NCBI GenBank assembly: GCA_032252755.1 | Contig: JAVUPY010000009.1 | Coordinates: forward strand, 1 to 62,155 | Direction of reading: 5' to 3' | DNA from: Terriglobia bacterium | Lineage (GTDB): Bacteria > Acidobacteriota > Terriglobia > Terriglobales > Acidobacteriaceae | Length of the DNA stretch: 62,155 nucleotides | Shown here: positions 39,969 through 44,674 of the stretch, in pieces | Layout: each line of letters opens with the position of its first letter | Position numbering within the stretch: the stretch's first letter is position 1 | The notes under the pieces: generated by a model | Told to the model about the DNA's origin: nothing | The model's database searches: none | What the model saw: the letters and a program-made list of their open reading frames with translations, nothing else | Position numbers and translations under genes: made by a program

Positions 39969-41054
39969 ATGGAAAACCCCCTAAAACTGAAGAAGATCAA
40001 TCACGTCGAATTCTGGGTCGGCAATGCCAAGCAGGCGGCCTATTTTTATCGCAAGGGATTCGGGTTCTCTCAAGTCGCCTACAAGGGATTAGAGACCGGC
40101 TGCCGGACCGAGTCGTCGTATGTCTTGCAGCAGAACAAGACTACGTTTGTTCTCACCACGCCGCTTACGGCCGACGGTCCAATTGCCGAGCACATCAAGA
40201 GGCACGGTGACGGGGTAAAAGACATTTGCCTGCACGTCGAAGATGCGGATTTTGCATTTGCCGAGGCGGTGCGGCGGGGCGCAAAGGCGGCCGTTGAGCC
40301 GCATGACCTGAAGGATGAGTTTGGGACAATTCGGCGAGCGGCGGTGCATACCTACGGCGACACGATTCACTCAATGATCTCGTTCAAGGACTATGCCGGT
40401 CCGTTTCTGCCGGGATACCAGTTGGCCGAGGTTCCGGGAGAGGAAGTCGGAATCCTGCGAGTCGATCACATGGTGGGGAACGTCGAGATCGGGAAGATGA
40501 ACGAGTGGGCTGATTTCTACAAGAACATCTTCGGTTTCCATCGCTACATCAGCTTCGACGACAAGGATATCTCGACGGAATACAGTGCGCTTATGTCGAT
40601 CGTAATGTCGGATGATTCCTACTCGGTCAAGTTCCCCATCAACGAGCCGGCGCCGGGTAGGCGCAAGAGCCAGATCGACGAATACCTGGAGGCCTACGGC
40701 GGACCGGGCGTTCAACACGTGGCGTTGCAGTGCAAGGACGTGCTGTATACGGTCGATCGGTTGAAGCAGAACGGGGTCGAGTTCCTGCGGGTTCCTGACA
40801 GCTACTATGAGGCGTTGCAGGATCGCGTCGGCAAACTCGAAGAGCCGATGGATGAGATCAAGCGGCTTGGCATCCTCGTCGATAAGGACCAGGAAGGATA
40901 CCTGTTGCAGATCTTCAGCAAGCCCGTGGAAGACCGTCCGACGGTGTTCTTCGAAATCATTCAGCGCAAGGGCAGTCGCGGCTTCGGCAAAGGGAATTTC
41001 AAGGCTCTGTTCGAAGCACTGGAGTTGGAGCAGGCAAAACGAGGCAATCTGTAG
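39969..41054 (+). CDS. hppD: 4-hydroxyphenylpyruvate dioxygenase
   Basis: 361 residues. Two-domain vicinal-oxygen-chelate fold with the iron ligands expected in VDHMVGNVE (about 160), PGVQHVALQ (about 240) and VFFEIIQR (about 330). C-terminal [15 protein letters not shown] is the family signature. It converts 4-hydroxyphenylpyruvate to homogentisate in tyrosine degradation. First gene of a compact plus-strand operon: hmgA, an unknown gene and fahA follow at short distances. Confidence 0.97.
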
Positions 41055-41127: not shown

Positions 41128-42444
41128 ATGGCGACGACAACCAGGGCGGAGCAGTTCAAGTACAACAGCGGTTTCGGCAGTGAGTTTGCGACCGAGGCGC
41201 TGCCGGGCGCTCTGCCGGAAGGGCAGAACTCGCCGCAGAAGTGTCCATACGGACTCTACGCCGAGCAGATGAGCGGGACGCCGTTTACGGCGCCGCGGGC
41301 GACGAACCGGCGAACCTGGGCATACCGCATACGGCCTTCGGTGATGCACAAGCCGTACCGGCAGATCGATCGCGGACTGATACGGGGAACGCCGTTCGAT
41401 GAAGTTACAACGACTCCTAATCAATTGCGCTGGAGTCCGTTCGCGATTCCGAAAGAGAAGAAAGATTTCGTCGACGGCTTGATCACGATCGCCGGAAACG
41501 GCGATTCGAGCATGCACAGCGGCGTTGCTATTCACATCTACGCGTGCAACCAGTCGATGATGGACCGGTTCTTCTACAGCGCTGATGGCGAGTTGCTGAT
41601 TGTGCCGCAACTGGGTGAAGTGGTACTTCACACCGAGTTCGGCCGGATTGACGCCAAGCCGGGTGAGATCGTCGTCATCCAGCGCGGGATCAAGTTTCGG
41701 GTTGAATTGAAAGAAGAGCAGGCACGCGGCTATATCTGCGAGAACTTCGGTGCGCTGCTGCGATTGCCGGACCTGGGGCCGATCGGCGCAAACGGTTTGG
41801 CCAACCCGAGAGATTTCCTGACGCCGGTAGCGAGCTATGAAGATCGCGAAGGGGATTTCCGGGTCGTCTCGAAGTTCCTTGGGAATTTCTGGGAGGCGGA
41901 GTACAACCATTCTCCGCTGAACGTGGTGGCGTGGCACGGGAACTACGCCCCTTACAAGTACGATTTGGCGCGGTTCAACTGCATCAACTCGGTCACCTTC
42001 GATCATCCGGACCCTTCGATCTACACGGTGCTGACGTCTGCGTCGGAGATCCCTGGCACGGCAAACTTCGATTTTGTGGTATTCCCGCCACGCTGGATGG
42101 TCGCAGAGCACACGTTCCGGCCACCCTGGTTCCATCGCAACTTCATGAACGAGTTCATGGGACTGATCTATGGCGAATACGATGCGAAGGCTGAGGGCTT
42201 CCTGCCGGGTGGCGCGAGCCTGCACAATTGCATGAGCGGGCACGGCCCGGACGCGACCAGTTTCGAGCGAGCGTCGAATGCCGAGTTGAAACCGCAGTTC
42301 TTCGGCGAGACGCTGGCCTTCATGTTCGAGACGCGGTTCGTGTGCCGTCCCACGAAGTTCGCGATGGACACGGCGGAACTGCAGCATGAATACTTCGAGT
42401 GCTGGCAGCCGCTGAAAAAGCATTTCGATCCCAACAAGCGCTGA
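41128..42444 (+). CDS. hmgA: Homogentisate 1,2-dioxygenase
   Basis: 438 residues. Conserved sections [60 protein letters not shown] and [53 protein letters not shown] are present, the last containing the iron-binding histidines and glutamate. It opens the aromatic ring of homogentisate to give maleylacetoacetate. AAGGAG is 5 bases before the ATG at 41128. Lies 73 bp after hppD. Confidence 0.97.
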
Positions 42445-42458
42445 GCGGAGCCAAATCG

Positions 42459-43358
42459 ATGGAAACCGTTGGTGTGCGTCATGGCGGAGTGAAGCATTCG
42501 CTGCACATTCTGCTGCATTCGCTCATCGATTACGCAGGGCTGTTTCCGCCAGCGGGCCTCAAGATGGAGGACGCAGTCGCAAACTATGCCCGCTACAAGA
42601 GCGGGCGGCACGCGTGGGCGCTCGGCAGGTTTGTAGTTCCCGCGGCACGATTGGAAGAATTCGAAAAATACTTCACGCCCGGTCGCGAGATATGGCACCT
42701 CAGCGCGCTGATCGGCCAGACGGCGGCAGAAGACCTTGCGTGCATTGCCGATTTCAATGGGCGTCATCGGCACTCCGCGTTGATCGACACGATAGAGGCA
42801 AAGGCTTCCGATCCCGCCGCGGTTCGCCAACTGAAGGCGCAAGTTCCGGAGCACATTCTCGTCTATTTCGAGGTCCCGAGCGGCGGCGATCCGGACGAAC
42901 TGGTAAAAGCTATCGGTGAGGCACATGCGCGGGCAAAAGTTCGTACCGGTGGCTTGACGCCGGAGATGTTCCCAACCGAGCAGCAGGTCCTCCGCTTCCT
43001 CGAAGCATGCGTGACAGAAAACGTGGCTTTCAAGGCTACGGCGGGATTGCATCATCCGGTACGCTGCATGAAGCCGCTGACGTATGAAAAAGACGGGCCA
43101 AGCGGAACCATGCACGGCTTCCTGAACGTTTTCCTCGCGGCGGCATTCCTGCTCGATGGTGTTGCGGCAAAAGATCTGGAAGCTCTACTGCTGGATGACG
43201 ATCCGGCGCATTTCGGTTTCGACGAGGATGCGGTCACATGGTGCGGGCACCGCCTGTCGCAAGCGCGCCTGCTGGAGTCGCGCGCGCTGGCTGCCTCTTT
43301 TGGATCGTGCTCATTTGAAGAACCGATCAGCGATCTTATCGCACTCAATTTCTTATGA
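42459..43358 (+). CDS. Unknown protein in the homogentisate operon
   Basis: 299 residues, cytosolic, no signal peptide or membrane helix. It starts at the ATG at 42459 behind GCGGAG and overlaps fahA by four bases (ATGA), so it is almost certainly co-translated with the degradation enzymes. Recurrent hydrophobic stretches and DYAGLFPPAGLKMEDAVANYA, VRTGGLTPEMFP and FKATAGLHHPVR are notable; the spacing suggests a TIM-barrel-like or other alpha/beta fold, but no family was identified. It occupies the slot where a maleylacetoacetate isomerase could be expected. An enzymatic or accessory role in tyrosine catabolism is inferred from context only. Confidence 0.7.
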   Translation: METVGVRHGGVKHSLHILLHSLIDYAGLFPPAGLKMEDAVANYARYKSGRHAWALGRFVVPAARLEEFEKYFTPGREIWHLSALIGQTAAEDLACIADFNGRHRHSALIDTIEAKASDPAAVRQLKAQVPEHILVYFEVPSGGDPDELVKAIGEAHARAKVRTGGLTPEMFPTEQQVLRFLEACVTENVAFKATAGLHHPVRCMKPLTYEKDGPSGTMHGFLNVFLAAAFLLDGVAAKDLEALLLDDDPAHFGFDEDAVTWCGHRLSQARLLESRALAASFGSCSFEEPISDLIALNFL

Positions 43359-44674
43359 ACCTGAACGAAACGCACGACCCTAGCGCGAAGTCCTGGATTG
43401 AATCGGCCAATCGCGCGGGGACAGATTTTCCTATTCAAAACCTGCCATTTGGAGTCTTCCGCCATATTGCCAGTACCGAGGCGCCGCGCATTGGCGTAGC
43501 CATCGGGGATGTGATTCTCGACATGGCTGGGGCGGAGATGGAAGGCTTCTTTGACGGAGACTCCAGTCGCGCCGCCCAGTCCTGCATGGCGGAGAGTCTG
43601 AACGAACTGATGTCGTTGAACCAGGAGCAATGGTCGGCGCTGCGGCGGCGATTGAACCAGTTACTGCGAAGCGACGCTCCGGCGGGATTTCGGCAGCGAC
43701 TCTCGCGACATCTGGTTCCGATGGCCTCGGTCGAGATGCTCATGCCCGCAGTCATCGGTGACTACACGGATTTCTACGCGTCAATTTTTCACGCGACCAA
43801 CGTCGGCAGCATGTTCCGGCCAGACAGTCCTCTGCTGCCGAATTACAAGTACATCCCGATCGGGTATCACGGGCGCGCGTCGTCGATCGTGGTCAGCGGA
43901 ACGCCTGTGTTCAGACCTTCCGGGCAAACACGGCCCGATCCTCAGCAACCGCCAACGTTCGGACCGAGCAAGGCGCTGGATTATGAGTTGGAGATGGGCG
44001 TGTTCGTTGGTGGCGGAAACATGCTGGGCTCGTCGATACCGATTGATTCGGCCAGCCAGAAGGTCTTCGGATTCTGTCTCGTAAATGACTGGTCGGCGCG
44101 AGACGTGCAGAGTTGGGAGTACCAGCCGCTTGGACCGTTTCTTGCGAAGAATTTCGTGACATCGATCTCGCCATGGGTTGTTACGGCCGAGGCGCTGGAG
44201 CCCTTTCGGTGGCCGGCTTTGAAGCGTGACGAATCAGATCCTGCGCCGCTCCCGTACCTGCTCTCGGAAGAAGACCAGCTCGAAGGCGCGTTCGATATCA
44301 CGCTCGAGGTTCGGCTGCGAACGGCGAAGATGCGCGACAAGGGCGACAAGGCCGTGCCGTTGAGCCGCGGATCGTTCCGCGATATGTACTGGACGGTTTC
44401 CCAGATGATTGCGCATCACGCCAGCAATGGTTGCAACCTGCGGCCGGGGGATCTATTGGCCAGCGGAACGGTTTCAGGTCGCACAAAAGACTCGCGCGGA
44501 TGCCTACTGGAGTTGACGTGGCGCGGGGCTGAGCCAATCGAGTTGCCGACCGGAGAAACACGAAAGTTCCTGGAAGACGGCGACGAGGTGATCTTTGCCG
44601 GGTTTTGCGAGCGAGAAGGATACCCGAGAATTGGTTTTGGGGAATGCAGGGGCGAGGTACTGCCGGCGAAGTAA
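43355..44674 (+). CDS. fahA: Fumarylacetoacetase
   Basis: 439 residues. VIGDYTDFYASIFHATNVGSMFRP contains the metal-binding aspartate and catalytic histidine of eukaryotic-type fumarylacetoacetase; YELEMGVFVGGGN, VNDWSARDVQSWEYQPLGPFLAKNF and LLASGTVSG follow. It splits fumarylacetoacetate into fumarate and acetoacetate, the last step of tyrosine catabolism. Starts within the end of the preceding gene (4-bp overlap). Stop codon abuts the stop of the convergent receiver-like gene with no gap. Confidence 0.96.
   Translation: MNLNETHDPSAKSWIESANRAGTDFPIQNLPFGVFRHIASTEAPRIGVAIGDVILDMAGAEMEGFFDGDSSRAAQSCMAESLNELMSLNQEQWSALRRRLNQLLRSDAPAGFRQRLSRHLVPMASVEMLMPAVIGDYTDFYASIFHATNVGSMFRPDSPLLPNYKYIPIGYHGRASSIVVSGTPVFRPSGQTRPDPQQPPTFGPSKALDYELEMGVFVGGGNMLGSSIPIDSASQKVFGFCLVNDWSARDVQSWEYQPLGPFLAKNFVTSISPWVVTAEALEPFRWPALKRDESDPAPLPYLLSEEDQLEGAFDITLEVRLRTAKMRDKGDKAVPLSRGSFRDMYWTVSQMIAHHASNGCNLRPGDLLASGTVSGRTKDSRGCLLELTWRGAEPIELPTGETRKFLEDGDEVIFAGFCEREGYPRIGFGECRGEVLPAK

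Follow-up and report, generated by a model that had tools for sequence, protein, structure and literature searches.

The open reading frame at 42459-43358, which lies between hmgA and fahA in the homogentisate operon of a Terriglobia bacterium, codes for a protein of 299 residues (termed X here) that is probably a glutathione-independent maleylacetoacetate isomerase replacing MaiA, although this role is supported by gene context and predicted fold and not by an assay. The homogentisate pathway is textbook, with one enzyme (GST zeta/MaiA) for its isomerisation step, and since this enzyme needs glutathione (PMC10950700; PMC8449657), which many bacterial groups apparently do not make, the step is a gap in their pathway maps. 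A widespread, unnamed, FahA-paired protein fills this gap by position and by distribution, so that, if the assignment is right, curators could close the pathway in hundreds of genomes, and a second fold and possibly a second chemistry would be added for the reaction. The initial annotation had proposed that an unrecognised protein stands in the place of maleylacetoacetate isomerase and could be a non-GST isomerase, a chaperone or a bypass enzyme. This observation is confirmed and its interpretation supported, since neither a canonical maiA elsewhere in the genome nor homologues in unrelated contexts were found; among the three options the evidence favours an isomerase. What appeared as one odd gene belongs to a widespread, uncurated family tied to FahA. 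No alternative maleylacetoacetate isomerase was named in the open-licence literature searched (papers consulted include PMC11012174, PMC5815605 and PMC11889516); an earlier report cannot be excluded.

The window, i.e., the whole stretch of DNA that was analysed (62,155 nucleotides, contig JAVUPY010000009.1 of assembly GCA_032252755.1), carries the following genes of the operon:

39969..41054 (+), hppD, 4-hydroxyphenylpyruvate dioxygenase (TIGR01263, 445.8 bits against a cut-off of 277)
41128..42444 (+), hmgA, homogentisate 1,2-dioxygenase (TIGR01015, 707.5 bits against 510.75)
42459..43358 (+), X, proposed glutathione-independent maleylacetoacetate isomerase with a predicted DERA-like TIM barrel
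43355..44674 (+), fahA, fumarylacetoacetase (TIGR01266, 558.8 bits against 375.3)

X starts with ATG and ends with TGA at 43356-43358, it overlaps fahA by 4 bp (ATGA), it is separated from hmgA by 14 bp, and the gap between hppD and hmgA is 73 bp. The G+C of X (0.586) is close to that of hmgA (0.588) and fahA (0.591). While the three neighbours are equivalogs over cut-off, X itself has no hit in Pfam or NCBIfam at E <= 1 or in PDB sequences at E <= 10. It is not a chance ORF, since a protein search finds it in 18 of 61 genomes (the own genome and 17 of 60 relatives). In the own genome (5.39 Mb, 96 contigs, 99.98% complete) there is no match to PF13417 GST_N_3, the only GST domain model searched, and none to TIGR01262 maiA at E <= 1e-3. 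Among the 61 genomes no maiA is over cut-off and 1 has a weak match, and the canonical glutathione synthase TIGR01380 is likewise over cut-off in none and weakly matched in 1.

The family has at least 566 encoding stretches, and by title these come from Acidobacteriota, Gemmatimonadota, Planctomycetota, Chloroflexota, Ignavibacteria, Chlorobiales, Fibrobacteres, Opitutia, a deltaproteobacterium and a Steroidobacteraceae MAG. Plasmids add Streptomyces, Pseudonocardia, Rhodococcus, Nonomuraea and Tsukamurella (Actinomycetota), Priestia (Bacillota) and Kovacikia (Cyanobacteriota); where the listed matches are annotated, X is a 'hypothetical protein'. A profile search of PDB sequences with the family gave 4 hits at E 0.15 or worse, and Pfam and NCBIfam searches with 94 homologues gave only single-member hits at E 0.004 or worse, none of them GST.

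The linkage of X to fahA was examined in 85 loci (80 genome contigs and 5 plasmids). FahA was found by tblastn in 74 of them, in 73 downstream of X on the same strand within 0.81 kb, while in the remaining one it lies 3.4 kb off on the other strand. A homogentisate dioxygenase (the HmgA kind or the divergent kind annotated so in Priestia, Streptomyces and Pseudonocardia) was found in 23 and MaiA in 0. Of the 11 loci without FahA four are cut by contig ends less than 0.5 kb behind X, whereas the other seven are real separations within the DNA examined. X stands directly upstream of fahA in loci from Acidobacteriota, Gemmatimonadota, Planctomycetota, Chloroflexota, Actinomycetota, Bacillota and a cyanobacterium, and in all 10 plasmid loci read, of 24 plasmid records with X (Priestia 2, Streptomyces 3, Pseudonocardia 1, Rhodococcus 2, Nonomuraea 1, Kovacikia 1; the two unannotated ones by tblastn). 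MaiA holds a comparable place in three Pseudomonadota plasmid loci read for comparison, where the orders are hmgA-maiA, hppD-hmgA-fahA-maiA and hmgA-fahA-maiA. The divergent homogentisate dioxygenase class sits with FahA and X, and often HPPD, in five loci (L020, L021, L023, L060, L078), but it scores far below the TIGR01015 cut-off where scored (69 and 73 bits in the genomes of L078 and L060), so that this model alone would not call it.

Co-occurrence was analysed in 297 genomes drawn from the phylum, of which X was found in 56, FahA over cut-off in 67, the hmgA family at E <= 1e-3 in 107 (51 over cut-off) and maiA over cut-off in 1, which lacks X. X and FahA occur together in 55 genomes, X only in 1, FahA only in 12 and neither in 229 (odds ratio about 1050, Fisher p 8e-47); the corresponding counts for X and any hmgA are 54, 2, 53 and 188 (p 1e-26), and for X and hmgA over cut-off 32, 24, 19 and 222 (p 4e-15). 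Collapsed to genera, 39 of 43 FahA genera have X against 1 of 124 others, yet these tests are not corrected for descent. In 45 of the 55 genomes FahA is downstream of X on the same strand within 2 kb, in two it is 2.8 kb off, in four it is some 290 to 450 kb away on the same contig, and in four it is on another contig, one of which (genome G229) may be a contig break, as X ends 46 bases before the end of its contig. Any maiA-profile match (E <= 1e-3, GSTs at large) occurs in 6 of the 56 X genomes. In 50 further X-bearing genomes reached through the related loci (45 of the 47 that are not Acidobacteriota by title, and 5 Acidobacteriota) an hmgA-family match was found in 46, 4 over cut-off and 42 below it at 19 to 83 bits; not each of the 42 is necessarily a true homogentisate dioxygenase. 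At least one of the 50 looks like a genome also in the phylum sample, by identical hmgA coordinates and score, so the sets are not wholly independent. In these 50 genomes maiA is over cut-off in 1, the Steroidobacteraceae MAG, where X and FahA are still adjacent, and weakly matched in 1 more.

Some results, however, speak against a strict replacement of MaiA. Twelve of the 67 FahA genomes lack X, ten of them have hmgA over cut-off (nine of the ten are of the window's own family), and none of the twelve has any maiA-profile match, so either the step can run unaided there or another enzyme exists, and a helper or dispensable role of X is not excluded. In the 61-genome set hmgA over cut-off without X occurs in 3 of 14 genomes. 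A common replacement gene was looked for in twelve hmgA neighbourhoods of genomes with hmgA but neither X nor MaiA, in several of which HmgA and FahA lie side by side without a gene between them; some genes are shared by subsets of these neighbourhoods, but none looked like an isomerase in a partial comparison, made by BLAST clusters and by eye only, without scanning against family models. In eight X-less genomes of one genus a weak GST match lies next to hmgA in seven by the listed coordinates (a GST-like gene lies directly beside hmgA in locus L122, 6528-8618), but none of the eight has FahA over cut-off, so this is not taken as proof of an exchange of X for GST; it is perhaps a further pathway variant with another hydrolase. 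It should also be noted that X is carried by a cyanobacterium, a group that probably makes glutathione.

AlphaFold2 on 94 sequences gives a confident single-domain TIM barrel (pLDDT 96.3, pTM 0.92) with strands read as the eight barrel strands 23-25, 55-61, 79-84, 107-115, 134-139, 158-162, 191-194 and 278-283. Foldseek itself ranked IMP dehydrogenase and transaldolase chains first with poor TM-scores and showed no DERA in its first 50 rows. Realignment of the 1000 best chains, however, put DERA-type chains in ranks 1-36 (Z 15.6 to 13.4, rmsd 2.8-3.7, 185-219 residues aligned), some being DERA by title and others (1jcj, 1jcl, 1ktn, 1mzh, 1j2w, 1ub3 and the KE70 designs) presumably so. The next family is PdxJ at Z 13.1, so that the margin of the best rows is about 2.5, while the lowest DERA rows are tied with PdxJ.

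Over the 94 sequences D24, A26, G27, P30, P31, E138, K160, R162, G164, G165, P172, K192, T194 to H199, G220, N223, R275, G282 to C284 and P289 are invariant, and E113 is kept in 93 of 93 (the fragments L016-L019 and the broken-frame match of L086 were left out of both alignments, and four plasmid members were included only in the first). The polar residues D24, E113, E138, K160, R162, K192, T194, H198, H199 and C284 fall on strands 1, 4, 5, 6, 7 and 8 or within five residues behind them, and K160, R162, K192, H198, H199 and C284 are also kept in the four plasmid members from other phyla. The main motifs are:

42528..42551 (+), DYAGLFPP (residues 24-31), predicted strand 1 and following loop, with D24 invariant
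42936..42953 (+), K-V-R-T-G-G (residues 160-165), predicted strand 6, with K160 and R162 invariant
43032..43055 (+), K-A-T-A-G-L-H-H (residues 192-199), predicted strand 7 and following residues, with K192, H198 and H199 invariant
43302..43325 (+), G-S-C-S-F-E-E-P (residues 282-289), end of predicted strand 8, with C284 invariant

The profile alignment by hhalign against 17 DERAs of the relatives (15 from the first genomes of the list and two more) is weak (E 0.04, probability 1.3%), and 3 of 150 column shuffles reach its score. Nevertheless, its full-length path pairs D24, E138, K160, K192, G165 and G196 with identical invariant DERA residues, that is 6 of 18 listed positions, against a mean of 1.4 in the shuffles, none of which reaches 6. 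The DERA lysines paired with K160 and K192 are presumably the Schiff-base Lys (E. coli 167) and its partner (201), whereas C284 is outside this alignment. Global hhalign against DERA gave nothing useful. X differs from DERA in that it has no hit to TIGR00126 (which is not among the 8 families matched by any of the 94 homologues at E <= 0.1), in the long segment between strands 7 and 8, the invariant HH behind strand 7 and the invariant Cys on strand 8; moreover, a separate true DERA exists in the same genome. With MaiA/GST zeta (TIGR01262) X shares the proposed step and a comparable operon place but no sequence match, and the TIM barrel is predicted instead of what is probably a thioredoxin-like plus helical domain.

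How X would act can only be inferred. In the simplest working model an invariant lysine on strand 6 or 7 (K160 or K192) condenses with a ketone of the diketone substrate, and the conjugated iminium weakens the cis double bond. C284 then adds reversibly to the double bond, presumably as glutathione does in MaiA, and rotation and elimination give the trans isomer fumarylacetoacetate, which FahA splits. It is possible, but no more than tentatively proposed, that X is thus a cofactor-free isomerase built on the aldolase (DERA) barrel, in which an enzyme-bound iminium and an internal cysteine thiol stand in place of glutathione, an independent solution of tyrosine catabolism in Acidobacteriota, Gemmatimonadota, Planctomycetota, Chloroflexota, Actinomycetota, Bacillota and others. 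A single-nucleophile version without imine, or acid-base catalysis by H198/H199, is not excluded.

Among other explanations, it seems unlikely, though it is not ruled out, that X is a helper of FahA (an assembly partner, chaperone or activator), with isomerisation being spontaneous or done by an unlinked thiol-dependent enzyme. X does track FahA more tightly than HmgA and overlaps or abuts fahA in many loci, and HmgA-FahA pairs exist without X and without MaiA. Yet, X is predicted to be a compact enzyme-type barrel with an invariant polar set including two Lys, two His and one Cys at or behind the barrel strands, which an assembly factor would not need, and in up to 10 of 55 genomes X and FahA are not neighbours. 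About equally unlikely is a bypass or clean-up enzyme, i.e., a Schiff-base lyase or hydrolase that splits maleylacetoacetate directly or acts on a side product of the pathway. DERA-type barrels seem to cleave carbon-carbon bonds next to carbonyls through lysine imines, and a bypass would explain why some genomes do without X, but a direct cleavage enzyme would make FahA superfluous, while X without FahA over cut-off occurs in 1 of 56 X genomes.

Least likely, an unlinked thiol S-transferase of the DinB/mycothiol or bacillithiol kind is the isomerase and X does something unrelated, which does not explain the X-fahA tie over many phyla. Such isomerases are established for maleylpyruvate in Corynebacterium and Rhodococcus (PMC3937715) and are a known precedent for a non-GST replacement of a maleyl cis-trans isomerase in the parallel gentisate pathway; X and its 94 homologues hit no DinB or MDMPI model, and the thiol proposed for X is its own cysteine. 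In 6 of 8 annotated plasmid loci read no such gene is listed in the stretch shown, whereas on two Streptomyces plasmids a 'maleylpyruvate isomerase N-terminal domain' protein (locus L163, 2397-3053, and locus L164, 3-659) lies 1-4 kb from X-fahA.
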